DNA from: Pseudonocardia sp.
Lineage (GTDB): Bacteria > Actinomycetota > Actinomycetes > Mycobacteriales > Pseudonocardiaceae
Assembly (NCBI GenBank): GCA_025869365.1
Contig: JAOZVV010000056.1
Location: forward strand, 1-64,000
Direction of reading: 5' to 3'
DNA length: 64,000 nucleotides
Shown here: in pieces, positions 41,983 through 55,154 of the stretch
Numbering within the stretch: position 1 is the first letter of the stretch
Layout: each line of letters starts with the position of its first letter
Notes under the pieces: model-generated
Told to the model about the DNA's origin: nothing
The model's input: only the letters and a program-made list of their open reading frames with translations
The model's database searches: none
Program-made: the position numbers and the translations under genes

Positions 41983-43236
41983 ATGCCTGAGGTTGTGTTC
42001 CCGCTCGACTCGATGAAGAAGTTCACGGAACAGCGCATCGTCGGCCACAACCGGTGGCACCCCGACATCCCGGCCCTGGTCGAGGTCACGCCCGGTGACA
42101 CGTTCCGGGTCGACTGCCGGGAGTGGTTCGACGGCGCCATCCACAACAACGACTCGGCCGACGACGTCCTGCACGCCCCGCTACCGGGGGTGCACGTGCT
42201 GTCCGGTCCGATCGCGGTCCGCGGAGCCGAGCCGGGCGACCTGCTGATCGTCGACATCCTCGACGTCGGCCCGATCCCGCAGGAGGACTCCGGCCCGCTC
42301 GCCGGCCAGGGATGGGGCTACACCGGCGTGTTCGCCACCGGCAACGGCGGCGGCTTCCTCACCGAGCAGTTCCCCGACGCCTACAAGGTGATCTGGGACT
42401 TCCAGGGCGGGAAGGCCACCTCCCGGCACGTCCCCGGGGTGTCGTTCACCGGGATCGTGCACCCGGGCCTGATGGGCACCGCCCCGTCGGCGGAACTGCT
42501 GCGGAAGTGGAACGCCCGCGAGGGTGCCCTCATCGCCACCGACCCGAACCGTGTCCCTCCGCTCGCCCTGCCCCCGTTGCCCGACTCGGCGATCCTGGGC
42601 AACCTGAGCGGAGACGAGTTCGACCGGGTCGCCGGTGAGGCCGCGCGCACGGCGCCGCCACGGGAGAACGGCGGCAACCAGGACATCAAGAACCTCACCA
42701 AGGGCTCGCGGGTGTTCTACCCGGTGTTCGTCAAGGACGCGAAGCTGTCGATGGGGGACCTGCACTTCTCCCAGGGCGACGGGGAGATCACGTTCTGCGG
42801 CGCGATCGAGATGGGCGGGTTCATGGACCTGCACGTCGACCTGATCAAGGGCGGCATGGCGACCTACGGCGTCAGCGAGAACGCGATCTTCATGCCGGGC
42901 AACGTCGACCCCCGCTACGACCAGTGGCTGGCGTTCTCCGGCACCTCGGTCACGCTCGACGGCGAGCAGCGCTACCTCGACTCGCACCTGTCCTACCAGC
43001 GGGCGTGCCTGCACGCGATCGACTACCTGCAGAAGTTCGGCTACAGCGACATCCAGGCCTACATGATCCTCGGTGCCGCGCCGATCGAGGGCCGCCTGTC
43101 CGGGGTGGTGGACATCCCGAACTCCTGCTCCACGGTCTACATCCCGACCGCGATCTTCGACATCGACGTGCGACCCGGCAAGAACGGACCCGCGCAGATC
43201 GACCCGGGCATCGGCGTGCCGAAGGCCAGCGCCTGA
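41983..43236 (+). CDS. fmdA: acetamidase/formamidase
   Basis: A 417-residue FmdA/AmdA-family amidohydrolase releasing ammonia from formamide or acetamide. Motifs: DTFRVDCREWFDGAIHNNDS, HVLSGPIAVRGAEPGDLL, GIVHPGLMGTAPS, ENGGNQDIKNLTKGSRVFYP (metal-site region), FSQGDGEITFCGAIEMGG. The length matches Methylophilus formamidase. Followed by the amide channel gene amiS, so it forms an amide uptake and hydrolysis module that complements the nitrile hydratase locus. Confidence 0.94.
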   Translation: MPEVVFPLDSMKKFTEQRIVGHNRWHPDIPALVEVTPGDTFRVDCREWFDGAIHNNDSADDVLHAPLPGVHVLSGPIAVRGAEPGDLLIVDILDVGPIPQEDSGPLAGQGWGYTGVFATGNGGGFLTEQFPDAYKVIWDFQGGKATSRHVPGVSFTGIVHPGLMGTAPSAELLRKWNAREGALIATDPNRVPPLALPPLPDSAILGNLSGDEFDRVAGEAARTAPPRENGGNQDIKNLTKGSRVFYPVFVKDAKLSMGDLHFSQGDGEITFCGAIEMGGFMDLHVDLIKGGMATYGVSENAIFMPGNVDPRYDQWLAFSGTSVTLDGEQRYLDSHLSYQRACLHAIDYLQKFGYSDIQAYMILGAAPIEGRLSGVVDIPNSCSTVYIPTAIFDIDVRPGKNGPAQIDPGIGVPKASA

Positions 43237-43326
43237 CGGTCCGGCACGTCACCACGAGCGACGGGTGGGGCCGGGCCCCGGACGGGCCCGGCCCCCTCGC
43301 CCTCCCGTCTCGGAAAGGTGTGACCC

Positions 43327-43968
43327 ATGGGATCCGTGGGACTGCTGTTCGTCGGCGCCGTCCTGTTCATCAACGGCGTGATGCTGCTGGGCTGGGTCGA
43401 CGCGAAGTCGGCGGCGCCGATCAACTTCTTCGTCGGCGCCCTGCAGATCATCACCCCGACCTACCTGATCTTCACCGCCAACGGCGACGCCGACACCATC
43501 CTGGCTGCGGCCGGCCTCTACCTGTTCGCGTTCACCTACCTCTACGTCGGGATCAACCTCACCTTCGACCTCGACGGCACCGGGCTCGGCTACTTCTGCC
43601 TGTTCGTCTTCGTCTCCGCGCTCGTCTACTCCGGTCTCAACTTCGTCCGGTTCGACGACCCGGGGTTTGGGGTGATCTGGCTGTACTGGGCGTTCCTGTG
43701 GCTGCTGTTCTTCCTGGTGCTCGGCCTCAAGCGCGAGAGCCTGACCCGCTACACCGGCGCGGTCTGTGCCATCCAGGGATGGGTCACCGCGTGGGTCCCG
43801 GCATTCCTGCTGCTCACCGGCAGCTACACCGGATACAGCAGGCAGATCGCCATCGCGCTCGCCATCTTCGCCGTCGTGGTCTTCGGCGGCCTCTACGTGA
43901 CGATCGGACGCCGCGGAGCGACTCCGGCACCGACCCATGCCGCAACCGGCGGCCACGTCACCGCGTGA
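43327..43968 (+). CDS. amiS: AmiS/UreI family amide channel
   Basis: A 213-residue inner-membrane protein with six helices: VGLLFVGAVLFINGVMLLG, INFFVGALQIITPTYLIFTA, LFAFTYLYVGINLTFDLDG, LYWAFLWLLFFLVLGLKRES, GWVTAWVPAFLLLTGSYTGY. These match AmiS/UreI channels for short amides and urea. Located 90 bp after fmdA. Confidence 0.93.
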   Translation: MGSVGLLFVGAVLFINGVMLLGWVDAKSAAPINFFVGALQIITPTYLIFTANGDADTILAAAGLYLFAFTYLYVGINLTFDLDGTGLGYFCLFVFVSALVYSGLNFVRFDDPGFGVIWLYWAFLWLLFFLVLGLKRESLTRYTGAVCAIQGWVTAWVPAFLLLTGSYTGYSRQIAIALAIFAVVVFGGLYVTIGRRGATPAPTHAATGGHVTA

Positions 43969-43994: not shown

Positions 43995-44873
43995 TCAGCG
44001 ACGGCGGCGTGCCGTGATGATCCAGGCACGCGAGTCGAAGTACACGCCGCCGTCGGTGTGGTGGGCGGCGAGGGTGGTGCGTAGCCGCGTGCGGGCGCGC
44101 TCGGCCGCCGCGGCGTCGAGGCCGGCGAGCAGGTCCTTGACCTCCCAGAGCCGGAGCACCGCGTCGAAGGCGGCGGCGGCGTCCGGGCCGTAGTAGACGG
44201 GCTCGTGCACGTCGGTGAAGGTGACGTCCGCGAAGCCGGCCGCTGCCAGGACGCCCTCCGCGACGGCCGGGTCCGCGAGGGAGAACGGGTCCGGACCGCG
44301 GGGGGTGACCGATGTGGCGGTGAGGGTCCGACGGATGGCGGTGGCCCACTCGTTGCGGTCGCGCTCCTGCCAGACCAGCAGCACCAGACGCGCCGCCGGG
44401 CGCAGGGCGCGCCCGATGTTGGTGAACGCGGCGACCGGGTCGGCGAAGAACATCGTCCCGAACCTGCTGATGCAGAGATCGAACAGCGCCGGTGGAAAGC
44501 GGTGGTCCTGGGCGTCCGCGTGCTCGAAGGTGATGTTGGTCAGCCCCTCGCCGTCGCTGAGCCGACGGGCCCGTTCGAGCATCGGCACGGAGAGATCGAC
44601 GCCGAGGACGCTCCCGGTGACGGCGGCGCGGGCGGCCTCGCGCGTGGACTGGCCCGTGCCACAGCCGATGTCGAGCACACGGTCGCCAGGGCCGACACCG
44701 GCCGCGGCGCGGAAGAGGTCGTTGTGCAGCCGCAACTCCGCGTCGTAGTCGAACAGGTCGGACATCACCGCCACCGCGTCCTCTCGATACCGATTCTCGA
44801 CCGGGCCGTCGCGGAGTATGCCTCTCCCCTGGTCCCGCGACACCGTCTCCGGCGCGAACCCCGCCGGGTTCAC
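43995..44873 (-). CDS. class I SAM-dependent methyltransferase
   Basis: A 292-codon frame. The conserved domain starts at MSDLFDYDAELRLHNDLF (ATG 44765), while the GTG at 44873 overlaps the MarR stop (GTGA) and allows coupling. SAM motif I is DRVLDIGCGTGQSTREAAR, motif II FDLCISRFGTMFF, motif III LRPAARLVLLVWQ. It resembles ubiquinone-type or small-molecule methyltransferases. The partner MarR gene suggests a detoxification or signalling role, which is inference. Confidence 0.8.
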   Translation of the reverse strand: MNPAGFAPETVSRDQGRGILRDGPVENRYREDAVAVMSDLFDYDAELRLHNDLFRAAAGVGPGDRVLDIGCGTGQSTREAARAAVTGSVLGVDLSVPMLERARRLSDGEGLTNITFEHADAQDHRFPPALFDLCISRFGTMFFADPVAAFTNIGRALRPAARLVLLVWQERDRNEWATAIRRTLTATSVTPRGPDPFSLADPAVAEGVLAAAGFADVTFTDVHEPVYYGPDAAAAFDAVLRLWEVKDLLAGLDAAAAERARTRLRTTLAAHHTDGGVYFDSRAWIITARRRR

Positions 44874-45307
44874 GTCCCCGCCACCCCGGGACCGCTGTCT
44901 CCCGGGCGGTCCGCGTCATGGTCGATCAGCCGCTCCAGGGCCGGTAGCGCCCTGCCGATGGCCTGGCGGTCATCGGAGCTGAGTCCCGCCAACCGGCGTC
45001 CGAACGAGGACGCCCGCCGATCGAGCATCTCTGCAAGACGTTCGCCGCCATCGCGCGTCAGCGTGAGCGCGGTCCTTCGGGCATCGCCGTCGTCGATGGA
45101 GCGAACGACCTGGCCGCCGCGCACCAGCGCACCGACAGCGCGGGACATGGTCGACAGCGTCACACCCTCACGCCGAGCAAGCTCGGACAGGGACAGCGGG
45201 CCGTCCTTGTCGATCGTGGACAGGACGGCGAGCTGCAGCGGCGAGGAGTCACCCCCCTTCGTGCGGCACAGTCCCCGACGCCGCGCATGAACCGCGCGCC
45301 CGCACAT
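44870..45307 (-). CDS. MarR family regulator (short N-terminus)
   Basis: A 145-residue winged-helix protein: SPLQLAVLSTIDKDGPLSLS, ELARREGVTLSTMSRAVGAL (recognition helix), DGDARRTALTLTRDGGERLA. The first 21 residues (MCGRAVHARRRGLCRTKGGD) replace the usual dimerisation helix, so the gene may be 5-prime truncated or have an atypical start. Its 5-prime end faces the gntR promoter and operator at 45360. Confidence 0.75.
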   Translation of the reverse strand: MCGRAVHARRRGLCRTKGGDSSPLQLAVLSTIDKDGPLSLSELARREGVTLSTMSRAVGALVRGGQVVRSIDDGDARRTALTLTRDGGERLAEMLDRRASSFGRRLAGLSSDDRQAIGRALPALERLIDHDADRPGDSGPGVAGT

Positions 45308-45359: not shown

Positions 45360-45392
45360 TTGCTGCATCCAGACTCGCCGGTTTAGGATGCA
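45360..45392 (+). promoter_or_regulatory. gntR promoter with inverted repeat TGCATCC-N15-GGATGCA
   Basis: TTGCTG (45360-45365), 17-bp spacer, TTAGGA (45383-45388) is a plausible promoter. TGCATCC (45364-45370) and GGATGCA (45386-45392) are perfect inverted half-sites flanking the spacer. The same ATCC-N15-GGAT arrangement occurs at 48187-48209, and the half-site recurs at 46624, 53008 and 54779. Autoregulation by the GntR protein is the simplest reading. Confidence 0.6.
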
Positions 45393-45476
45393 CGCGAGCG
45401 CAGTTCGAGGCCTTCCCGGAGCCCGCGGCACGCGGTCTCGGGAACGGGCAGGATCTGCTCCGACCAGACTGGGGTG

Positions 45477-46214
45477 ATGGGCGAGGTGACCGTGACAGAT
45501 GCCGGTACGCAGGTCGAGGACCGCGACCTGGTCGACTCCCTCGTCGAGGATCTCCAGGAGCGCATCAGCACCGGCCAGATCCCCGCCGGCACGTGGCTGC
45601 GGCAGGCACACCTGGCCGAAGAGCTGGGCGTCAGCCGCACGCCCGTCCGGGAGGCGATCCGCCGGCTCCAGGCCATGGGCACGGTCGAGGTGATCGCGAA
45701 CCGGGGCGCCCGGGTCCGGCTGCCGTCCGCCCGGGACATCATCGAGGTCTACGAACTGCACGGCGTGCTGCAGGGACACGCGGGAGCGGCCGCCGCCGGA
45801 CTGATCACCTCGGAGCAGCTCGACCGGCTCGCGGCGGCCGAGAAGATGTTCCGCGCCGTCGTCGAGGACCTCAAGGCGGCCGGGGGCGACGCCACCGACG
45901 CGCAGCAGCGGTGGCACGAGGCGAACACGCAGTTCCACATGGTCATCATCGAGGCCGGCGGCAACACCCACCTCGCCGAGGTCATCGAGAGCCTGCATCG
46001 CAAGGTCCCCCGCAACCTCACCTGGATCGCGCTGGGCAATGACATCCGCCGGCTCGAGAAGGACGCGGCGGAGCACGCCGGGATACTCGATGCGATCAGC
46101 TCCGGAGACGCGACGGCGGCGCGTACCCAGCTGATCGGTCACGCCAAGCGGGCCAGCGACCTCCTCATCCGCACGGTGGACAAGATCGGGCAGGGGCCGC
46201 TCGAGCGGCGGTGA
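45477..46214 (+). CDS. GntR family (FCD domain) regulator
   Basis: A 245-residue FadR-type regulator. Winged helix: LVDSLVEDLQERISTGQIPAGTWL, then AHLAEELGVSRTPVREAIRR and EVIANRGARV. The FCD ligand domain follows (YELHGVLQGHAGAAAAGLIT, FHMVIIEAGGNTHLAEVIE, DAISSGDATAARTQLIGHAK) with metal-binding His/Asp residues expected for the family. Start ATG 45477 or GTG 45474. Likely regulator of the 46-58 kb catabolic genes through the GGATNCA/TGNATCC sites. Confidence 0.9.
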   Translation: MGEVTVTDAGTQVEDRDLVDSLVEDLQERISTGQIPAGTWLRQAHLAEELGVSRTPVREAIRRLQAMGTVEVIANRGARVRLPSARDIIEVYELHGVLQGHAGAAAAGLITSEQLDRLAAAEKMFRAVVEDLKAAGGDATDAQQRWHEANTQFHMVIIEAGGNTHLAEVIESLHRKVPRNLTWIALGNDIRRLEKDAAEHAGILDAISSGDATAARTQLIGHAKRASDLLIRTVDKIGQGPLERR

Positions 46215-46470
46215 CCACCTGGCATGACCCGGTTCGCATCGATCTCGGCCTCGGCCGCTCGACGGCCGGCCCGCTCATCGACCTCGCCCTGCGTCGCGAC
46301 CGCGACTCCCGGCCGGTCGACGACGTCACCCACCAGGTCCAGGAGATCCTCGGCTACTACCACGCCTTCCCTGCGGGTCACCGCTTCGCGGCCGTCGACC
46401 TGACCAGTGCGGTGGACGGCGTGCCCGATGTCCGGGTCCTCGGCTCGTCCGTTCGAACGGGGTGCCGTCG
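46215..46470. other. non-coding scar between gntR and caiB remnant
   Basis: About 256 bp with long shadow frames on both strands but no domain, no plausible start with a ribosome site and no coding continuity. Probably what is left of deleted genes together with the caiB fragment. Confidence 0.4.
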
Positions 46471-46572
46471 GCCGGCGATCCCGCTCGAGAGATCCACGAC
46501 CGTGTGGTCGTCGAGCGGGGCGGCCCCTGCCGCTCTCCCGCTCACGCCGGGCCCGCCGGTGTCCGTTCCCAC
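46471..46572 (-). pseudogene. 5-prime remnant of a CaiB/BaiF CoA-transferase gene
   Basis: From GTG 46572, with GGAGGGAGG as a good ribosome site, the frame reads 34 residues ending APLDDHTVVDLSSGIAG. That is the N-terminal strand of class III CoA-transferases (compare PLDGVTVVALEHAVAG of the intact CaiB gene here). Similarity stops abruptly after IAG. Promoter, operator and ribosome site are preserved upstream, so only the body of the gene was lost. Confidence 0.65.
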
Positions 46573-46610
46573 GAGCCCTCCCTCCACCCGGCCTGGCGAC
46601 CGCCGCGCCC

Positions 46611-46650
46611 ACCCTAGTTTGTGGGATGCAAAATCGTCAAGATTGCATCC
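46611..46650 (-). promoter_or_regulatory. GntR-type operator over minus-strand promoter (caiB remnant)
   Basis: A 27-bp site (46624-46650) with perfect arms GGATGCA and TGCATCC has TTGAC (minus strand) at its centre, positions 13-17. TTGACG (46640-46635), an 18-bp spacer and TAGGGT (46616-46611) form a promoter reading toward the caiB remnant. The site overlaps the last codons of the acyl-CoA ligase gene. Same geometry as at 52996 and 54766. Confidence 0.65.
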
Positions 46651-48139
46651 CAAACGCCAACTCGTCGCGAAGCACGCGGCGGAGCAGCTTCCCGGTCTCG
46701 TTGTAGGGCAGCGCGTCACGGACCTCGATCACCGTCGGAGCACAGGTGGACCGCAGCCGCAGCCGCACGTGCTCACGGAGCACGTCGACGGCCACCTCCT
46801 CACCCTCGGCGAACACGACCGCCGCAGCGACCGTCTCCCCCCACTCCGGATCCGGCACGCCGCACACCGCAGCGTCGGCGACGGCGGGATGTTCGAGCAG
46901 GGCCTGCTCGATCTCGCCGGGCGAGAGGTTCTCCCCGCCCCGGACGATGACGTCGTCCAGACGGCCGAGGACGTAGAGGTACCCGTCCCGGTCGAGGAGG
47001 CCCGCGTCCCGGGTCGGGAACCAGCCGTCCTCGCGGGTCGCCCGCCGTCCGACGTACTCCCCCGACACCTGCTCCCCACGCACCCAGATCTCTCCCCGTT
47101 CGCCGGCCGGCAGCACCTCGCCGTCCGCGCCCCGGATACCCACCTCGAGCGACGGCAGCGGCCTGCCCACCGACCCGAGCCGGTCCCGGATCCGGGGATC
47201 CGCACTCGCCGCCGCCGATCTGTGGTCCTCGGGTCCGAGGACGGCGATGGTGCTGGAGGTCTCGGTGAGGCCGTAGGCGTTCACGAAGTCGACCCGCGGC
47301 AGCGCCGCCAGCGCCCGGCGGATCACCGCCACCGGCATCGGACCACCGCCGTAGGACAGCGACCTCAGGTGCGGCAGGCCCTCGTCGCCCAGCTCGTCGA
47401 GGATCCGGCCGAGCATGGTGGGCACGACCATCGCGTGGGTGATGTGTTCCGCTCGCGCCGTCGCCACCCACGAACGCGCGTCGAAGGACTCCATCCGGAC
47501 GGCGCGCCTGCCCGCGAAGACGTTCGACAGCACGCCGGAGACACCCGCGATGTGGTACGGCGGGACACCGACCAGGACGGCTTCGGTCTCCTCCGCGCCG
47601 GCGAACTCGACGGACGACAGGACGTAGGAGACGAGGTTCTGGTGGCGCAGGATCGCCGCCTTCGGTTCGCCGGCGGTGCCGCTGGTGAACAGCAGGACCG
47701 CGGTCCGGCCCGGCTCGTCGGGCGCGTCCTCGACCGGAACGATCCCGGGATCCGCCGCGGCGTCGAGCAGCTCCTGTCTGCGCAGCACCACGATGCCCGG
47801 CGGCGCGCCGATCCGGTCCGCGACCGCATCGTCCTCGACGAGGACGGTCGCGGGGGCGAGCCGCTCCACCAGCGCTCGGAGCTTGTCGTCGGCGAGGCGG
47901 TAGTTGAGCGGTGCGAAGGGGATCCCCGCATAGGCCGCTCCGAACAGCGCCAGCGGGACGGCGTCGGAGTTGAGGTCGATCATCCCGAGCCGTTCGACGG
48001 ACTCGTCGGCGAGCAGCCGGGCGACCCGACGCGCCCGCAGGTCGAGGTCGGCGAAGGTCATCCCGTCGAGGCGTCCTCCGGTGGCGATCCGCTGCCCCAC
48101 ACCGTCCGCCGCCATCGCGAGCAGCATCGTGATGCTCAT
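46637..48139 (-). CDS. acyl-CoA ligase (ANL superfamily)
   Basis: A 500-residue AMP-forming ligase. LLFTSGTAGEPKAAILRHQN (P-loop), YGLTETSS, PTRDAGLLDRDGYLYVLGR, VRGGENLSPGEIEQ and the C-terminal LPYNETGKLLRR (catalytic Lys) are all present. Compact N-terminus starting MSITMLLAMAADGVGQR. The substrate class (fatty or aromatic acid) is not readable. It lies in the GntR region, divergent from the 48.3 kb unknown pair, and would activate the substrate for the CaiB/SDR enzymes. Confidence 0.9.
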   Translation of the reverse strand: MSITMLLAMAADGVGQRIATGGRLDGMTFADLDLRARRVARLLADESVERLGMIDLNSDAVPLALFGAAYAGIPFAPLNYRLADDKLRALVERLAPATVLVEDDAVADRIGAPPGIVVLRRQELLDAAADPGIVPVEDAPDEPGRTAVLLFTSGTAGEPKAAILRHQNLVSYVLSSVEFAGAEETEAVLVGVPPYHIAGVSGVLSNVFAGRRAVRMESFDARSWVATARAEHITHAMVVPTMLGRILDELGDEGLPHLRSLSYGGGPMPVAVIRRALAALPRVDFVNAYGLTETSSTIAVLGPEDHRSAAASADPRIRDRLGSVGRPLPSLEVGIRGADGEVLPAGERGEIWVRGEQVSGEYVGRRATREDGWFPTRDAGLLDRDGYLYVLGRLDDVIVRGGENLSPGEIEQALLEHPAVADAAVCGVPDPEWGETVAAAVVFAEGEEVAVDVLREHVRLRLRSTCAPTVIEVRDALPYNETGKLLRRVLRDELAFGMQS

Positions 48140-48174
48140 GCCGGTCGACCCGATGATCGGAGACCGCGGGACTC

Positions 48175-48211
48175 TTGCCGTGTTGTATCCACGCTGACTA
48201 TCTTAGGATCC
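48175..48211. promoter_or_regulatory. divergent promoter/operator region, TGTATCC-N15-GGATCC
   Basis: TTGCCG (48175-48180), an 18-bp spacer and TATCTT (48199-48204) give a plus-strand promoter for the 48.3 kb pair. Half-sites TGTATCC (48184-48190) and GGATCC (48206-48211) have the same 15-bp spacing as at the gntR promoter. Confidence 0.55.
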
Positions 48212-48275
48212 CGTTTAGGTGCCGTCGAGAGCTCGGCGTGAAATCGCACCGCAACCCGACCCGGAAAGGCACAGC

Positions 48276-48581
48276 ATGACCGCGTCCCCGTTGCGATCCG
48301 GCCTGCGACTGCAGAGCAGGACAAGTACGACCGAGGTGATCGTGGTCCGCCCCGGGCCTGCGGGCGCGGCCCTCGAATGCGGTGGTCTCCCCATGGCGCC
48401 CGGCGCGGACCCCGTGGAGGTGGTCTCCGGATCCGGTCCCGCGGTCCAGCTCGGGAAGCGCTACACCGACGCGTCCGGCTCGCTCGAGGTGCTCTGCACC
48501 AAGGCGGGCGCCGGGCCGCTGGCCCTCGACGGCGTCCTGCTGGAGATCAAGGCCGCCGCCCAGCTGCCGGCATCGGACTGA
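48276..48581 (+). CDS. uncharacterised 101-residue protein (first of an unknown pair)
   Basis: Starts MTASPLRSGLRLQSRTSTTE with GGAAAGG 8 bp upstream. Beta-rich: EVIVVRPGPAGAALECGGLP, QLGKRYTDASGSLEVLCTKA, LDGVLLEIKAAAQLPASD. Two Cys (LECGG, VLCTK) could bind metal. Family not recognised. It is 27 bp from the 457-residue gene and shares its promoter, so the two probably act together. Confidence 0.75.
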   Translation: MTASPLRSGLRLQSRTSTTEVIVVRPGPAGAALECGGLPMAPGADPVEVVSGSGPAVQLGKRYTDASGSLEVLCTKAGAGPLALDGVLLEIKAAAQLPASD

Positions 48582-48608
48582 TCGACGGACATCGGAAAGG
48601 GCAACAGG

Positions 48609-49982
48609 ATGACGGACAGTGTCAGCACCCCATCGCGGCAGGAGCCGCCGCCCGACGCAGCCCTCACTGCGGACGGGCTCACCCGGCTCCACCAGCGCCT
48701 CTGGACCGAACGCGGCAACCGCATCGGCCGGGACCTCACGGTGCCGCCGTGTCCCTACACCGCCGACGAGCTCGCCGCGCTCGCTGCCGGGAACCGCAGG
48801 GTCGGGTACCTCCCGCCGGAGGTCGCCACTCGCGCCACGCGCCACCTGCTCGGCGCGATGTTCCCGGCGATGGACTGCTACAGCCTTCAGCCGGACAACG
48901 AGGTGGAGAACCTCGTCACCAGGCCGGGATGGTTCGACTACGAGGCGGCGATCGACGCGCCCTACGGCGACACCACCGAGGCGGAACTCCGGCGGCGGGT
49001 GGCCGACGACGGCCGCGAGCTGCTGAACCTGAACCAGTACATCGTCGCGGCGCAGGACAGCAGACTGTTCACCGGGCACTACCTGGACGAGCGGCGGACC
49101 TGGCCTCGCATCGGCATCCTGGTCACCGGCCGCATCGTCTGCGTGCGTGTCGACGGCGACGAGATGGCCGAGGGGCTGGGCGACGAGCCGCCGCAGCCGG
49201 GAGCACTGCTGACCGCCTACGACCTCCACCACGACTTCAAGGCCCCTTACACGGGCGGGCGGTCGTTCGGAGTCGCCCGCAGCGAACGGGCCGCGAGCGT
49301 GACACCCGAGCCCCCGGCTCCGGCGCGCGGCATCCACGCCTCCCAGCTGGGACCGACGGACCCGGACGCGGAGTGGCGCCGCCAGGTCGACCGGCTCGTC
49401 GACGCCGGCGTCGCGGCCGAGCTGGGGCTGACCCCCGAGCAGTACGCCGCCTCGCTGCCGCGCTTCACGGCCCGACCCCCGACCTACGCCGGACGGTTCG
49501 ATGCCCCGGTGATCGTCGAGACCCGGGTCGAGTGGCGCCGGCTGTTCGAGCTGTTCGGGATCCGCGTCTCGCCGATCCTCGCCGTCTTCCCGCCGGCCGT
49601 GCCCACCGGAGCGGACTCGGCCCACCGCGACGAGCCGTACGCCGCGTGGTTCACCCGCTGGGGACAGCGGTTCGACGGACCGACCTCGCCCGAGGAGGCA
49701 CGTGCAGCGCTGCGCGCCGACGAGGTCGGGGCGAACCTCGTGGAGGGCGGTGCCGTCGCCCACGCGTTCCCCGAGCTCGTCGAGTCCGCCCGGTTCTTCG
49801 ACCACATCGGCGAGGTGCTGCCGGCGGCCGAGATCGCCGGGCCGTTGCCGTTCGAGCCGATCGACCGCACGCCGGGGATCTGCCGCTGGCGCGGCATCCC
49901 GGAGTTCGGCTGCAACCTCTATCCCCTGGCGTTCAGCGTCTTCCGGCCGCTCGTCCGGGGCCGGGAGATCACGACGGCGTGA
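48609..49982 (+). CDS. uncharacterised 457-residue protein (second of an unknown pair)
   Basis: Soluble protein beginning with a disordered PSRQEPPPDAA segment. Then LTRLHQRLWTERGNRIGRDL, GAMFPAMDCYSLQPDNEVEN, LNLNQYIVAAQDSRLFTGHY, LLTAYDLHHDFKAPYTGGRS, VEWRRLFELFGIRVSPILAV and the C-terminal CRWRGIPEFGCNLYPLAFSV. Conserved-looking His (YDLHHDF) and Cys residues may be functional. No known domain was recognised. Its GntR-region context points to carboxylic-acid catabolism. Confidence 0.75.
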   Translation: MTDSVSTPSRQEPPPDAALTADGLTRLHQRLWTERGNRIGRDLTVPPCPYTADELAALAAGNRRVGYLPPEVATRATRHLLGAMFPAMDCYSLQPDNEVENLVTRPGWFDYEAAIDAPYGDTTEAELRRRVADDGRELLNLNQYIVAAQDSRLFTGHYLDERRTWPRIGILVTGRIVCVRVDGDEMAEGLGDEPPQPGALLTAYDLHHDFKAPYTGGRSFGVARSERAASVTPEPPAPARGIHASQLGPTDPDAEWRRQVDRLVDAGVAAELGLTPEQYAASLPRFTARPPTYAGRFDAPVIVETRVEWRRLFELFGIRVSPILAVFPPAVPTGADSAHRDEPYAAWFTRWGQRFDGPTSPEEARAALRADEVGANLVEGGAVAHAFPELVESARFFDHIGEVLPAAEIAGPLPFEPIDRTPGICRWRGIPEFGCNLYPLAFSVFRPLVRGREITTA

Positions 49983-49986
49983 GACG

Positions 49987-50023
49987 CGGTCGGCCGCGTG
50001 CCACGGTGGCGCGCGGCCGACCG
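49987..50023. terminator. bidirectional terminator
   Basis: CGGTCGGCCGCG / CGCGGCCGACCG, a perfect 12-bp stem with a 13-nt loop, lies between the convergent 457-residue gene and the SDR gene. Confidence 0.75.
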
Positions 50024-50033
50024 TGCCGGGGCC

Positions 50034-50792
50034 TCAGGTGTGCGGGCCCCCGGCGACATAGAGCACCTGGCCGGAGACGAACCCCGATCGCTCGTCGGTC
50101 AGGAAGGACACGGCGTGGGCGATGTCCTCGCCCGCGCCCGCCCGCCGGACCGGGATCGCGTCGGCCCGCTGCTGGAGGTAGTCCTCCCAGGGTGTCCCGA
50201 TCCGCTCGGCCGTCGCTCTCGTCATCTCGGTCACGACGAAGCCGGGCGCGACGCAGTTCGCCGTGATGCCGAAGCGGCCCAGCTCGAACGCGAGGGTCTT
50301 CGTGAAGCCCTGCAGACCCGCCTTGGCGGCCGCGTAGTTGGCCTGACCGCGCTTGCCCAGGGCCGAGGTGGACGACACCGTCACGATCCGGCCCCACCCG
50401 GCGTCGACCATGTGTCTCTGGGCCGCCCGGCTCATCAGGAACGCCCCCTTGAGGTGCACCCCCATCACGGAGTCCCAGTCCTGCTCGCTCATGCGGAACA
50501 GCAGGTTGTCCCGGGTGATGCCGGCGTTGTTGACCAGCACCGTCGGTGGTCCGAGTTCGGCGGCGACCCGGTCCACGGCGGCCTGGACGGCACCGGCGTC
50601 CGAGACGTCGGCCGCCACCGCGATGGCCGTGCCCCCTTCTGCCGTGACGGCGTCGGCAGAGGCCTTCGCGGCGGCCTCGTCGAGGTCGAGAACGGCGACA
50701 GCACGCCCGTCCCGGGCGAGGCGCAACGCGGTCGCGGCGCCGATCCCCCGGGCGGCTCCGGTCACGATGGCGACACGATGGTGCTCTGACAT
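50034..50792 (-). CDS. short-chain dehydrogenase/reductase (FabG-like)
   Basis: A 252-residue SDR: cofactor motif VTGAARGIGAATALRL with Asp after the second strand (VLDLDEA, suggesting NAD preference), NNAG, catalytic Ser-Tyr-Lys (VSSTSALGKRGQANYAAAKAG), APGFVVTEM and C-terminal GQVLYVAGG. Probably a 3-hydroxyacyl-CoA dehydrogenase or ketoreductase in the CaiB pathway. Last gene of the hydrolase-CaiB-SDR unit, 13 bp after caiB. Confidence 0.9.
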   Translation of the reverse strand: MSEHHRVAIVTGAARGIGAATALRLARDGRAVAVLDLDEAAAKASADAVTAEGGTAIAVAADVSDAGAVQAAVDRVAAELGPPTVLVNNAGITRDNLLFRMSEQDWDSVMGVHLKGAFLMSRAAQRHMVDAGWGRIVTVSSTSALGKRGQANYAAAKAGLQGFTKTLAFELGRFGITANCVAPGFVVTEMTRATAERIGTPWEDYLQQRADAIPVRRAGAGEDIAHAVSFLTDERSGFVSGQVLYVAGGPHT

Positions 50793-50805
50793 TGCGCTGA
50801 CTCCT

Positions 50806-52008
50806 TCAGCAGTGGTCGGGCCGGGACCCGTCGGCGGGCACCGGTTCGGCGAGCCCGAGTTCGGCGAGGATCGCCGCGGTGTGTTCACCGAGGGCCGGAA
50901 CCGGTCCCATCGGCAGTTCGACATCCCGGAAGGTCATCGGCGGCAGCACGGCACGGACGTCGCCGACCTCGGTGGAGACCGCACGCCACCGATCCCGCTC
51001 CGTCAGCTGCGGATGCTCCACGAGCTCGGCGGTGCCGTTGACCTGGGCCGCGGGGATCCCGGCCGCGGCCAGGTGCTCGTCGAGCTCCGCGGTCGTCCGG
51101 AGCCGGGTGAACCCCGAGACGAGCGCATCGCACTCGGCCCGGTGGGCGACCCTCTCGACGTTCGTGGCGAACCGCGGGTCCGCGGCGAGCTCCGGGGCCC
51201 CGAACACCTCGGAGACCAGCGACCGCCAGCCGCGGTCGTTCTGGATGCCGATCAGGATCTGGCCGTCCGCGGTCGGGTACGCGTCGTACGGTGCGATCGC
51301 CGCATGGCTCAACCCCATCCGTGGGACCTGCCTGCCCCCGTAGAGCTGCATGTAGAGCGGATGTCCCATCCATTCGACGGCCGCGTCGAACATCGACACG
51401 TCGACCACCGCACCGCCACCCGTGCGCGCACGGCGGACCAACGCGCCCAGCACCGAGACCGTCGAGTACAGGCCCGCCGCGATGTCCGCGTTGGGCACGC
51501 CGGTCTTGGTCGCGGTCTCGGGGGTGCCGGTCACGGCCACCATCCCGGACTCCGCCTGGATCAGCATGTCGTAGGCCTTGCGATCCCGGCGCGGCCCGCC
51601 CGTCCCGTACCCGGACACGTTCACCACGATCAGCCGCGGATCGGCGGCGCGCAGGGTGTCCGCATCCAGGCCGAGCCGCTCGACGACGCCGGGCGCGCTG
51701 TTGTGCAGGAAGACGTCCGCCCGCGCGATCAGGGCCCGCGCGACCCGCAGACCCCCGGCGGACTTCAGGTCGAGCTCGACGGACTCCTTGCCCCGGTTCA
51801 GCCACACGAAGTGGGTGGCGATGCCGCGCACCGCGTCGTCGTAGCGGCGCGCGAAGTCGCCCTCGCCCGGCCGTTCGATCTTGATCACCCGGGCGCCCAG
51901 GTCCGCCAGGTGCCGGGTCGCCAGTGGCCCGGCGACCGCGTGCTCCAGCGCGACGACGGTCACGCCGTCGAGCGGCAGCTCCGGGTGAGGTCCCTCCCCC
52001 GCGCTCAC
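50806..52008 (-). CDS. CaiB/BaiF family CoA-transferase
   Basis: A 400-residue class III CoA-transferase. LPLDGVTVVALEHAVAGPLA, ADLGARVIKIERPGEGDFAR, FVWLNRGKESVELDLKSAGG and DVFLHNSAPGVVERLG are the family N-terminal motifs, with the catalytic Asp expected in KTGVPNADIAAGLY. The C-terminal half is GWRSLVSEVFGAPELAADPR onward. GTG start overlapping the hydrolase stop. It moves CoA between acids. A truncated relative lies at 46471. Confidence 0.9.
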   Translation of the reverse strand: MSAGEGPHPELPLDGVTVVALEHAVAGPLATRHLADLGARVIKIERPGEGDFARRYDDAVRGIATHFVWLNRGKESVELDLKSAGGLRVARALIARADVFLHNSAPGVVERLGLDADTLRAADPRLIVVNVSGYGTGGPRRDRKAYDMLIQAESGMVAVTGTPETATKTGVPNADIAAGLYSTVSVLGALVRRARTGGGAVVDVSMFDAAVEWMGHPLYMQLYGGRQVPRMGLSHAAIAPYDAYPTADGQILIGIQNDRGWRSLVSEVFGAPELAADPRFATNVERVAHRAECDALVSGFTRLRTTAELDEHLAAAGIPAAQVNGTAELVEHPQLTERDRWRAVSTEVGDVRAVLPPMTFRDVELPMGPVPALGEHTAAILAELGLAEPVPADGSRPDHC

Positions 52009-52901
52009 GGAGCCGACCGGCGCGCGGTGGCGGCGACCTCGGCGATGACCGTGTCCTGGACCCCGGCCGGGAACTCGTGGCCGAGCCCGGACACGACGAC
52101 GAGGCGCGCGTCCGGGATCGCGGCCGCCGTGGCCTCGCCGCCGTCGACCCCGACGAGGGGGTCCTCGGAGCCGTGGATGACGACCGTGGGCACCCGGAGC
52201 CCGCCGAGCGCCGACGTGCGGTCCGCGGCCACCAGCACCGCCGCCTGCTGGCGCAGCTTGCCCTCCGGATAGTGGCGGCGGTCGTAGGAACGCTCCGCCT
52301 GCGCCCGCGCCCGCGACTCGTCGAAAGGGAACCCGCTGCCCGCCAGTGCCCGCCCCACGGCCACCTGGGCCGCGACGACCTCGCCGCGCGAGCTCGGCGT
52401 GCCCGACCGGAGGATCGCGAGCGCCTCCGGTCGCGGCCGGCCGACATCCGGCGCGCCGGTGGTGGACATGATCGAGCACAACGACCGGACCCGGGCCGGA
52501 TGCCGGACCGCGAGGATCTGGGCGATCATGCCGCCCATGGACGCACCCAGGACGTGCGCACTGCGGACGTCCAGCGCGTCCAGCAGACCCGCGGCGTCGT
52601 CCGCCATGTCCTCGAGGCCGTACACCGCCCCCGACCGATCTCGCAGCCGCGCCCGCGCGATGTCCGGCAGCAGGCCGTCGAAGTCCGTGGACAGACCGAC
52701 GTCGCGATTGTCGAAGCGGATGACGAAGAAGCCCGCCTCCACGAAGCCCTCGACGAAGCTCGGCTCCCATCCGGTCAGCTGCACGCCGTGGCCCATGAGA
52801 AGCAGCAGCGCCGGGTCCGCCGGATCGCCGAGCGTCTCGTAGCAGAGCTCGATGCCGTTGGACCGGGCGACGCCGCCGGAGCGGCGCGCCGATCCGCTCA
52901 C
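52005..52901 (-). CDS. alpha/beta hydrolase
   Basis: A 298-residue hydrolase: SNGIELCYETLGDPADPALL, LMGHGVQLTGWEP (oxyanion region), HVLGASMGGMIAQILAVRHP (nucleophile Ser elbow GASMGG), IHGSEDPLVGVDGG (Asp), GLGHEFPAG (His). GTG 52901 is chosen because GGAG lies 6 bp upstream and because a promoter at 52996-53024 would put longer starts before the transcript. An ATG at 53024 is in frame but overlaps the -35. Confidence 0.8.
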   Translation of the reverse strand: MSGSARRSGGVARSNGIELCYETLGDPADPALLLLMGHGVQLTGWEPSFVEGFVEAGFFVIRFDNRDVGLSTDFDGLLPDIARARLRDRSGAVYGLEDMADDAAGLLDALDVRSAHVLGASMGGMIAQILAVRHPARVRSLCSIMSTTGAPDVGRPRPEALAILRSGTPSSRGEVVAAQVAVGRALAGSGFPFDESRARAQAERSYDRRHYPEGKLRQQAAVLVAADRTSALGGLRVPTVVIHGSEDPLVGVDGGEATAAAIPDARLVVVSGLGHEFPAGVQDTVIAEVAATARRSAP

Positions 52902-52995
52902 CGCGATCTCCGGGGTCCGTACGGCCCGGCATGCCGTGACGTGACGGACGAATCCGACATCCCGTCCCCCTTCCGTGAGCGGCGCACTCCCGCGA

Positions 52996-53034
52996 ACCCT
53001 ATCGTTAGGATGCATATAAGTCAATGTTGGATCC
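52996..53034 (-). promoter_or_regulatory. promoter and GntR-type operator of hydrolase-CaiB-SDR operon
   Basis: TTGACT (53024-53019, minus strand), a 17-bp spacer and TAGGGT (53001-52996). The 27-bp site 53008-53034 has arms GGATGCA and TGGATCC and carries the TTGAC at positions 13-17, as at 46624 and 54779. Confidence 0.65.
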
Positions 53035-53063
53035 TATCTCTACCTATCTCTGCCTATCTCTGT
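53034..53063. repeat. 10-bp tandem repeat x3
   Basis: CTATCTCTAC, CTATCTCTGC and CTATCTCTGT follow one another between the operator and the 3-prime end of the cyclase gene. Pyrimidine-rich on the plus strand. No function is apparent. Confidence 0.7.
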
Positions 53064-53097
53064 CGGCACGGCCCCGGACTCCTCGCCGGATTGCGGC

Positions 53098-54012
53098 CTA
53101 CTTGACGGCCAACGGGTTCACCGGTGACCCCACGGCCCCGACGAACTTGATCGGCGGGGCGGTGAAGAAGAAGTCGTAGACACCGTCCTGGGCGCAGTCC
53201 GCGGCCAGTTCCTCGAAATCCAGTATCTCGCCGAGCGGCATTCCCATGTCCCTGATGAGGACACAATGCACCGGATACTTGTCCGTCCCCTCGCCGGGCA
53301 GCGCCTCGATCGCCCAGTTGTCGGAACACAATGCCGCGACCTGTCGGCGGTGCAACCATTCCGTGCAGGCCAGGCCGATTCCCGGCTCCCCGTCCATGAA
53401 CTGCCGGGAGTCACCGGTCGTGGTGAAGACCTGACGCCAGCCGGTCCGGACGAGCAGGATGTCCCCCGTTCCGACGGTGACCCCCTGCCGCTCGGCGGCC
53501 GCGTCGAGGTCGTCGGGGGTGATGACGTGGTTGCGCCCGAGCCAGTCGACCCCTTCGAGCCGGGCGATGTCGAGCAGCACCCCCCGTCCGACGATTCCCC
53601 GGCCGAGCTTGTCCACCGCGAGCCGCTTCGCACCGTGCGGTCCCACGTCGGAGGCGGGGTAGCCGTTGTAGAGCTGGTCGTCGTAGAAGATGTGGGACAG
53701 GCCGTCCCACTGCGACGCGGCCTGGAGCGGCATGAAGACGTAGTCGTCCGCGTAGTGGGCGCCACCCGGGAGGTCCTGGCCCGCACCGGTGTCCCGCATG
53801 AGATGCACCGGGTTGATCCGGCCACCGCCGCCGACCTGCGGCCCGTCGGAGGAGAACGGGATGCCGAGGTCGAAGACCCGTCCGCTCCGCACCCGGCCCG
53901 CCGCGGCGAGGACGAGGTCCGGGGTGATCAGGTTGAGCGTGCCCTTCTCGTCCTCGGGGCCCCACCGGTTCCAGTTGCTGAGCCTCGCGCCCACCTCACG
54001 GAAACTCTCCAC
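53098..54012 (-). CDS. cyclase family (kynurenine-formamidase-like) hydrolase
   Basis: A 304-residue metal-dependent hydrolase: RLSNWNRWGPEDEKGTLNLI, RSGRVFDLGIPFSSDGPQVG, QAASQWDGLSHIFYDDQLYN (metal-binding His and Asp region), VLLDIARLEGVDWLG, ILLVRTGWRQVF, CSDNWAIEALPG and PVHCVLIRDMGMPLGEILDF. Members open lactones, imides or formamides. Divergent from the NTF2-like gene. It fits ring-opening chemistry in the same catabolic set. Confidence 0.88.
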   Translation of the reverse strand: MESFREVGARLSNWNRWGPEDEKGTLNLITPDLVLAAAGRVRSGRVFDLGIPFSSDGPQVGGGGRINPVHLMRDTGAGQDLPGGAHYADDYVFMPLQAASQWDGLSHIFYDDQLYNGYPASDVGPHGAKRLAVDKLGRGIVGRGVLLDIARLEGVDWLGRNHVITPDDLDAAAERQGVTVGTGDILLVRTGWRQVFTTTGDSRQFMDGEPGIGLACTEWLHRRQVAALCSDNWAIEALPGEGTDKYPVHCVLIRDMGMPLGEILDFEELAADCAQDGVYDFFFTAPPIKFVGAVGSPVNPLAVK

Positions 54013-54053
54013 GTCGCGGTCCTCCGATCATGTGTGAATGGTGTGGTCAGCGA

Positions 54054-54082
54054 TTGCCGCAAACCATTCTCGGGTCTAATGT
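54054..54082 (+). promoter_or_regulatory. promoter of NTF2-like gene
   Basis: TTGCCG (54054-54059), 17-bp spacer, TAATGT (54077-54082), about 40 bp before the ATG at 54123. No GGATNCA half-site is present, so it is probably outside the GntR regulon. Confidence 0.5.
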
Positions 54083-54122
54083 GGAGCCGTCCGCCAGGCC
54101 ACTTCCAGTACTCCGGAGAATC

Positions 54123-54533
54123 ATGTCCGCGAACCCGACCGTCGGCGTCGAGAACACCATCGGTGCAGCGTACGACGACTATTTCGCCGATTTCCAGCGA
54201 CAGGACGCCCTCGTGGCCGCGGACCATTTCACCGTCCCCTTGAGCCGGGTGGCGAACGGTCGGATCACCGTGGCCGCCACCAGGGCGGACGTGGAGGCGA
54301 TGCTGACCTCGATCTGGGCGAGCCTCGCGACGAGGCGGTACGGCAGGTCCGCCCTCGCGGACCGGACCGTCACGGTGCTGGACGAGCGCTGCGCCCAGTT
54401 GCGGGCTCGCGGGACCCGGTACGACCTCACCGACGACCCCATGGAGGACTTCGACGTGCTGTACACCCTCGTGCGGGGAGCCGACGACCGGTGGCGGATC
54501 GCGGTCATCACCTCGCTCACGGGAGGCCGCTGA
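54123..54533 (+). CDS. NTF2-like/SnoaL-fold protein
   Basis: A 136-residue cone-fold protein: VENTIGAAYDDYFADFQRQD, AADHFTVPLSRVANGRITVA, ADVEAMLTSIWASLATRRYG, DVLYTLVRGADDRWRIAVIT. Typical of isomerase-like or accessory proteins of unknown substrate. Divergent from the cyclase and probably acts in the same route. ATG preceded by GGAG. Confidence 0.8.
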   Translation: MSANPTVGVENTIGAAYDDYFADFQRQDALVAADHFTVPLSRVANGRITVAATRADVEAMLTSIWASLATRRYGRSALADRTVTVLDERCAQLRARGTRYDLTDDPMEDFDVLYTLVRGADDRWRIAVITSLTGGR

Positions 54534-54693
54534 GCGGTCCCCGGATCCCGATCGCACGGCCCACCAGATCGCGGTGGCGGCCGGGGGTACCGAGGAGGAA
54601 CCCGCTGCTCCTGACCCGCTCGAAGGAGTCGGCGCGCGCCGCATCCTGCGCGGCGGAGCGGGCCGACTCGGCCCGGCGCTGGCTCTCGTTCAC
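54517..54693 (-). CDS. possible 58-residue protein
   Basis: A short frame from GTG 54693 with GGAGG 7 bp upstream. Product VNESQRRAESARSAAQDAAR... has an Ala/Arg-rich helix followed by SSGFLLGTPGRHRDLVGRAI. It lies behind a promoter/operator of the GntR type (54766-54805), which supports expression. Its tail overlaps the NTF2-like gene by 17 bp. Family unknown. Confidence 0.4.
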   Translation of the reverse strand: MNESQRRAESARSAAQDAARADSFERVRSSGFLLGTPGRHRDLVGRAIGIRGPLSGLP

Positions 54694-54765
54694 TTCGCGA
54701 CCTCCATGTCGACCTGCCGGCACGGGGGAACGGCACCCGGCGGCCCGCGCGCTCCGTCCACTCGC

Positions 54766-54805
54766 ACACTAGGTCTTAGGATTCATTCTGGTCAAGACTG
54801 TATCC
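54766..54805 (-). promoter_or_regulatory. GntR-type operator over minus-strand promoter
   Basis: TTGACC (54795-54790, minus strand), 18-bp spacer, TAGTGT (54771-54766). The 27-bp site 54779-54805 has arms GGATTCA and TGTATCC with TTGAC at positions 13-17. Third copy of the same promoter architecture. Confidence 0.6.
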
Positions 54806-55154
54806 AGTTGGAGTGGATGTGGACGACTCCTGTGGACGCCGGCGGCGTGCGTTCGCCCCCGGCCGAGTTCACGATGTCCCCGGCCCGCCTCAGCCGGTGG
54901 TGGCCGATGCCTCCTGCGCCGTCGGACCACAGTGGCCCGAGGCCCGCAGCGGTGGCACCGGACGGAGTCCCGGCCGTTGGCCCGCCGACGAGCCGTCGCC
55001 CAGAGCGGGCGCTGGGCCATTGGCCCAAGATTGTCGAGGGTTCTTGGCAGCATGCGTGCGTTCAGGCCTATCGTCCGGCCAGAACTCATCCATCCCGCCC
55101 ACACGACGGCCATCCGGCCATCGAGCCGGGCCGTCCATCCACAGGGAAGTAGCC
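54806..55154. other. leader region of indolepyruvate oxidoreductase gene
   Basis: About 350 bp with no supported gene; open frames here lack domains and ribosome sites. It contains CTGGGCCATTGGCCCAAG near 55014-55031, a small palindrome, about 125 bp before the start codon, that may be a regulator site. No clear -35/-10 pair was found. Confidence 0.4.

Follow-up and report, generated by a model that had tools for sequence, protein, structure and literature searches.

Predicted Operators of a Presumed VanR-like GntR Regulator in Pseudonocardia: Paired Palindromes with Centres 21 bp Apart

Introduction

The window analysed here, bases 1-64,000 of the 68,223-bp contig C56 in the 5.27-Mb draft genome of a Pseudonocardia species (G000), contains gntR, a gene for a regulator with a GntR winged helix-turn-helix and an FCD domain, amid genes for an acyl-CoA ligase, a CaiB-type CoA-transferase, a hydrolase, a dehydrogenase and a pair of proteins without a Pfam or NCBIfam match (Table 1). 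Five sites, O1 to O5, are predicted to be operators lying over gntR's own promoter and over neighbouring catabolic operons. A first-pass annotation of this DNA had noted five related sites and read them as a GntR regulon, and the observation of the five sites is confirmed. In our reading, they are very probably the operators of the GntR encoded at 45474-46214, a presumed VanR-like repressor, each consisting of two palindromes 21 bp apart that would take up one dimer apiece. For comparison we used loci (L-numbers) from other genomes (G-numbers), among them three relatives with a close GntR, G169, G274 and G292.

Results

Three of the sites, O2, O4 and O5, match GGATKCA-N13-TGNATCC exactly over the 27 bp previously described (46624-46650, 53008-53034 and 54779-54805), the full operators extending from 46623, 53007 and 54778. 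All three carry GTCAA, the minus-strand TTGAC, at positions 13-17, followed at 17-18 bp by a -10 box of TAGGGT or TAGTGT, and they do share the -35, the -10 and the register of the promoter-in-operator architecture ascribed to them. The other two had been described as carrying the half-sites in opposite order with a 15-bp spacer, over the gntR promoter (O1) and over the divergent promoter of the ligase and the unknown pair (O3). Their positions over these promoters hold; the pattern is exact at 45364-45392, and at 48184-48212 it is met with one mismatch (GGATCCC).

With up to two mismatches on both strands of the window, the inverted pattern has six matches, a number that none of 100 shuffles reached (mean 1.28, largest 5); the everted pattern, with four matches equalled by 4 of 100 shuffles, is weak by itself. 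In the genome-wide scan that had been suggested as a check, GGATNCA-N13-TGNATCC occurs at three exact places, all inside the window, and at eight with up to one mismatch, against two for the reversed control. For the everted pattern, the only exact place is the gntR site; with up to one mismatch there are six, against two. A relaxed pattern with one mismatch fared no better in the own genome than its reversed control (11 versus 14 places). Pairs of the word NGNATNCN at a distance of 21 bp, where A or T fills three or more of the four flanking positions, number four in the window, compared to a mean of 0.03 and a maximum of 1 in 30 Markov resamples; site 46624 falls short of this flank condition and has an arm matrix score of 27.0 bits. 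As both the flank rule and the arm matrix were derived partly from window sites, the weightier evidence is that from other genomes.

What do the two orders of half-sites have in common? Each arm is a VanR-type palindrome, TGNATNCA, of which GGATNCA and TGNATCC are both parts, and the distance between arm centres is 21 bp in all five sites, inverted (N13) and everted (N15) alike. This geometry accounts for the same half-sites appearing in opposite orders; the distinction of inverted and everted sites as separate operator types or classes was thus given up, further arm orders having turned up as well. By a matrix-free rule, in which two NGNATNCN words with the above flank condition are counted at spacings of 9-60 bp, the five own loci hold five pairs at 21 bp against an average of 0.02 at other spacings, and seven loci of close homologues in G169, G274 and G292 hold ten against 0.04; Markov resamples of these close loci gave a mean of 0.1 pairs at 21 bp, with a maximum of 1 in 20. 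In 30 loci of homologues with approximately 35-48% identity, 22 pairs are at 21 bp, found in 15 of the loci, against an average of 0.55 and a next best of five at 20 bp, whereas 81 control loci, mostly of more distant GntRs, yielded seven pairs at 21 bp, eight at 20 bp and an average of 2.96. L055, L058, L060 and L066 were omitted from these counts as repeats of other loci. The spacing of 20 bp is the runner-up in the distant loci and level with 21 bp in the control loci, and a less strict two-turn rule may apply beyond this clade of loci.

Four class-level loci picked by GntR homology only contain four pairs at 21 bp in three of the four, two at 20 bp, and one or two at three other spacings; the fourth, pairless locus repeats an earlier one, and L216 has sequence in common with L062 from the previous set. 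The six pairs at 21 bp in L205-L210 are not independent, these loci having been picked around class I matches (defined below). Full-palindrome arms are present in distant sites, with TGGATCCA occurring twice in a Thermoleophilia metagenome-assembled genome (L061:5133) and in Nocardia miyunensis (L070:4839), and an Actinosynnema site (L066:5899) has TGCATGCA as one arm. In 34 sites, 8 own and 26 from the three relatives, arm position 2 is G and the centre is AT in 68 of 68 arms and position 7 is C in 67 of 68, a conservation that is partly circular as the sites were gathered by matrix; this set omits the site on contig C75.

The promoter register falls into two classes. Class I reads palindrome, 3 nt, TTGNNN, 4 nt, palindrome, 5-6 nt, TANNNT; in class II, TTGNTG lies over palindrome 1 and TAGGAT over palindrome 2, with a spacer of 18. 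A class I promoter accompanies 6 of 9 own, 8 of 12 close and none of 35 distant sites, and is absent from 4200 control positions near sites (L047:7271 from our hand list scores below the cut-off used in this test). The 26 sites of the relatives comprise 16 of class I, three with a -10 but without TTG, three of class II and four of neither. Class II is found at the gntR promoter of the window and upstream of gntR in G292 (L157), G274 (L158) and G169 (L049), and at 48184 the class II -10 is present and the TTG absent. Distant members lack class I promoters yet hold to 21 bp, so the protein is a likelier determinant of the spacing than the promoter.

The tie to the regulator comes from co-occurrence. 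Scanned for a strict class I motif, GGATNCA-N3-TTGAC-N8-ATCC, the 390 family genomes yield 19 exact matches, spread over six of them (three in G000, five each in G169 and G292, four in G274, one each in G192 and G057), while the reversed control yields none. In a search of 62 genus genomes, G000, G169, G274 and G292 are those with a GntR of at least 69% identity; in the 249 family genomes searched, the highest identity outside the genus is 45%. G192 encodes homologues of 40-45% identity, its class I match lying about 2.4 kb from one of them. With one mismatch allowed, the motif is found in 10 of 62 genus genomes against 1 for the reversed control, and in G260 and G261, two of the five extra genomes, the one-mismatch match falls in the locus of a GntR homologue. 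Pseudonocardia dioxanivorans CB1190 has a homologue of 76% identity (L058). Of nine gntR genes inspected, six have a 21-bp pair within 320 bp upstream. As the motif tracks the close GntR orthologue across family genomes, GntR is the best candidate, and together with operators at orthologous genes (see below) this upholds the proposal of one regulon with GntR as the likely regulator.

The protein itself scores above the gathering scores of both Pfam families, with PF00392 at the N-terminus and PF07729 at the C-terminus, and has no NCBIfam match above a cut-off. A profile search against solved structures returned 7xp0 as best match (E 3.3e-34) and the 6z74 set as second (E 1.3e-22), which we take to be Atu1419. 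N150, H154, H200 and H222 of the window protein align, as read by eye, with Asn137, His141, His192 and His214 of Atu1419 and are candidates for the metal-binding Asn-His-His-His residues of FCD domains. L047, L156, L157 and L158 each have one perfect TGGATCCA palindrome just upstream of gntR, continuing into what may be an ATG (TGGATCCATGA).

Several observations weigh against so simple an assignment. The class I match of G057 comes without a GntR match at E 1e-40 and looks like chance. Among the nine genes inspected, no pair precedes gntR in L048 and L155, and L156 shows one good arm only. The several paralogous GntRs of G169 and G292 prevent a one-to-one assignment of regulators to operators, the own genome also contains 14 other FCD/GntR matches, all of them weaker, and half of the 30 distant loci are without a pair by the strict rule.

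Comparison of the same promoters in related genomes, likewise suggested earlier, supports the regulon: in G169, G274 and G292, operators are again found at the orthologous genes, those of G274 on one contig together with gntR. L157 and L158 have counterparts of the operators at the ligase 3' end (46623) and 5' end (48184). The hydrolase operator (53007) recurs in L048, before an esterase-hydrolase pair in L207 (8027) and similarly placed in L205 (7724); no operator orthologous to 54778 was found in the relatives' loci compared. Three further own operators lie on contig C186, at a second ligase with ECH (C186:5279, with L047:8146, L206:1402 and L208:779), CaiB (C186:6264, with L206:4964, L208:4367 and L210:11633) and an ABC transporter (C186:13015, with L206:11633, L208:11049 and L210:4814). 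The regulon is thus probably larger than the set in the window. A match with one mismatch at C75:47889, 274 bp before the open reading frame of an ABC transporter, is without a class I promoter and was left as doubtful; matches on C162 and C120 were taken as chance.

The genes under the operators (acyl-CoA ligases, ECH, CaiB, SDR, hydrolases, a flavin monooxygenase and an ABC transporter) suggest that the regulon degrades some compound via CoA thioesters. Of the targets named in the first-pass annotation, the hydrolase-CaiB-SDR operon is borne out by the orthologous operator before the hydrolase in G169, and the unknown pair by an operator over the divergent promoter that it shares with the ligase, with orthologous sites in L157 and L158. 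The ligase start adjoins O3; as a target of 46624 the ligase was rejected on position, direction and the orthologous loci, since the stop codon of the ligase falls within this site and the promoter there faces the other way, towards what is left of a lost operon. In G292, the site orthologous to 46623 precedes a flavin monooxygenase gene (by Pfam) with a CaiB-like start beyond, and in G274 the layout looks the same by translation. In the window, the 44-residue frame below this site resembles the monooxygenase start over its first dozen residues (by eye) and the CaiB start over the next 20, and opposite to it lies a shortened gene related to that of a luciferase-like monooxygenase in G169 (72% over 76 residues). 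The supposed small gene below 54779 was judged to be a fragment of an acyl-CoA dehydrogenase, whose C-terminal end it carries, although Pfam finds no match in the frame alone. With only the 44-residue frame left below 46623 and the dehydrogenase fragment below 54778, remnants of genes seem to be all that two of the three identical promoters still precede.

Taken together, 46211-46620 and 54517-54723 hold remnants of at least three genes (a luciferase-like monooxygenase, a monooxygenase/CaiB fusion frame and an acyl-CoA dehydrogenase C-terminus), with intact copies in the relatives' cluster. Adjoining the regulon, 41983-43968 contains a formamidase FmdA gene (686.9 bits, cut-off 500), followed by a gene for what is by translation a probable AmiS/UreI-type channel.

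Table 1. Regulator, predicted operators and genes at the gntR locus (window coordinates)
Feature	Position	Strand	Remarks
gntR, GntR winged helix-turn-helix + FCD regulator, proposed repressor	45474-46214 (start 45474 or 45477)	+	Pfam PF00392 59.9 bits, PF07729 74 bits
O1, class II (everted)	45364-45392	+	over gntR promoter; -35 TTGCTG overlaps palindrome 1, -10 TAGGAT overlaps palindrome 2, spacer 18
O2, class I	46623-46651	-	overlaps ligase stop codon; TTGACG-18-TAGGGT, directed leftward; orthologous sites L157:7949, L158:8079
O3, class II-like (everted, one mismatch)	48184-48212	+	between ligase and unknown pair; -10 TAGGAT, no TTG -35; orthologous sites L157:9486, L158:9616
O4, class I	53007-53035	-	upstream of hydrolase-CaiB-SDR; TTGACT-17-TAGGGT; orthologous site L048:8592
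O5, class I	54778-54806	-	above acyl-CoA dehydrogenase fragment; TTGACC-18-TAGTGT
44-residue remnant below O2	46441-46572	-	flavin monooxygenase-like start (by eye), then CaiB-like start, 80% over 20 residues with L157
AMP-dependent acyl-CoA ligase	46637-48139	-	Pfam PF00501 204.5 bits
101-residue protein	48276-48581	+	no Pfam or NCBIfam match; homologues 65% (L157), 59% (L158)
457-residue protein	48609-49982	+	no Pfam or NCBIfam match; homologues 72% (L157 and L158)
SDR-type dehydrogenase, gene 3 of operon below O4	50034-50792	-	Pfam PF13561 190 bits
CaiB-type CoA-transferase	50806-52008	-	Pfam PF02515 373.5 bits
Alpha/beta hydrolase, gene 1 of operon below O4 (start uncertain)	52005-52940	-	Pfam PF00561 78.8 bits
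Short frame, 68 residues	54517-54723	-	27 residues like acyl-CoA dehydrogenase C-terminus, 21/27 identical to L207:14777-15895; no Pfam match alone

Discussion

How would such operators work? The sequences show the geometry, its conservation, the promoter register and the co-occurrence with the regulator gene; binding, cooperativity, repression and an inducer we infer along the following lines. Each palindrome (TGNATNCA, in its best form ATTGGATCCAAT) would hold one repressor dimer, and the centre distance of 21 bp, equal to two helical turns, would bring two dimers onto the same face of the DNA, where they are probably cooperative or tetrameric. In class I, the -35 hexamer would be enclosed between the palindromes, with palindrome 2 filling the -35/-10 spacer; in class II, at gntR and partly at the promoter of the ligase and the unknown pair, the palindromes would cover the -35 and the -10 themselves. 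Bound repressor would exclude RNA polymerase until released by a metabolite of the pathway, and the regulon would comprise catabolic genes of both C56 and C186.

Could the sites belong to another regulator? An IclR-type protein on C186 (L009:5481-6266) is surrounded by the operators C186:5279, 6264 and 13015, and its 88% orthologue in G169 also stands beside an operator (L210:11633); a MarR-type protein at 44870-45307, beside gntR, is divergent from it around O1. However, G274 and G292 are without an IclR orthologue at E 1e-40 and have kept the orthologous operators, which are thus independent of IclR, and we rejected it as the regulator; moreover, the ligase operator of G169 (L047:8146) lies beside a GntR gene, and the IclR gene has a different palindrome just upstream, TGTTTCATATTTGGAACA (L009:5445-5462), which may be its own operator. 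As for MarR, the 13 close loci searched yielded no homologue exceeding 42% identity, and it was set aside. That either of them, rather than GntR, is the regulator seems very unlikely to us.

We hold it to be similarly improbable that an arm is an asymmetric half-site for one subunit, such that inverted and everted sites are two operator types of a single dimer, as the first-pass annotation implied. While the best three sites of the window show near-symmetry around the centre, as this would predict, the centre distance common to both orders does not fit it, single 10-bp palindromes suffice for Atu1419 (PMC7797058), and the 34 sites combine forward, reverse and fully palindromic arms in nine kinds of ways, so that a rigid pair of asymmetric half-sites is hardly possible. 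Site 46624, which lies between the 3' ends of the convergent gntR and ligase and has 10-bp perfect inverted arms, could also be seen as a bidirectional terminator hairpin. This is extremely unlikely, as its orthologous sites in G292 and G274 retain the -35, the -10 and the spacing with a less perfect symmetry, and that of G292 precedes an intact monooxygenase gene.

Two repressor dimers on paired palindromes thus being our preferred reading, a wider scenario can be drawn, which we put forward as about as probable as its opposite. In an actinobacterial clade of VanR-type GntRs, the two-turn spacing of 21 bp would be set by dimer-dimer contact and not by the promoter, as it persists in distant members (Arthrobacter, Nocardia, Streptomyces and Thermoleophilia) that do not show the promoter register. 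In a Pseudonocardia subclade, the -35 would have become locked between the dimers, yielding a plug-in promoter module for a large catabolic regulon, some modules of which would have outlived the genes they controlled. A precise operator rule results, in which two TGNATNCA palindromes at a distance of 21 bp enclose the -35, and from it the regulon can be predicted both for an uncharacterised repressor clade and for a catabolic cluster.

Comparison with Known Systems

The first comparison, made on the operators, is to VanR and VanO, including a vanillate-inducible construct with a stretch that is presumably the native Pvan promoter. The VanO operator palindrome of Caulobacter is ATTGGATCCAAT, the palindrome seen here (PMC7970624), and the construct reads palindrome-N3-TTGACG, which puts its -35 in the class I register (PMC6538847). 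Its second palindrome, however, follows 39 bp on, compared to 21 bp here (PMC6538847).

Atu1419 of Agrobacterium fabrum, an FCD protein of the VanR group, recognizes the 10-bp palindrome ATGTATACAT, which is in the register of TGNATNCA and can sit between -10 and -35; it binds as one dimer per palindrome and forms a tetramer (PMC7797058). In contrast to the pairs described here, its palindromes are separated by 190 bp, or by 109 bp in the case of a degenerate one, and are joined by looping, and the DNA sites of the tetramer are about 10 nm apart (PMC7797058), against about 7 nm for 21 bp of straight DNA. As the former exceeds the latter, an Atu1419-like tetramer may not fit the 21-bp pairs. 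AlkR, an FCD repressor released by long-chain acyl-CoA, likewise has a palindrome over a catabolic promoter, but this is a single main palindrome, ATTGTCAGACAAT, accompanied by two weak additional sites, and the available text describes no 21-bp pair (PMC12042122). Cooperative double sites of FadR-subfamily GntRs are a general trend in divergons, differing from ours in that neither a 21-bp rule nor a promoter register is described in the part available (Suvorova 2015, PMC4494728). Two further reports held nothing decisive for the comparison in their available parts (PMC4920640, PMC6608401). Among the papers listed by a literature search, which does not prove absence, there was no published 21-bp pair of VanR type.

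Thus, the arm is the known VanO palindrome, while the fixed pairing at 21 bp, its spread in a GntR clade and the stereotyped promoter register seem to be new. As a catabolic repressor the system is ordinary in kind; it is unusual in its strict operator grammar, and lends itself to asking how repressors of the VanR group, of which one is a tetramer, seat two dimers on closely spaced palindromes.

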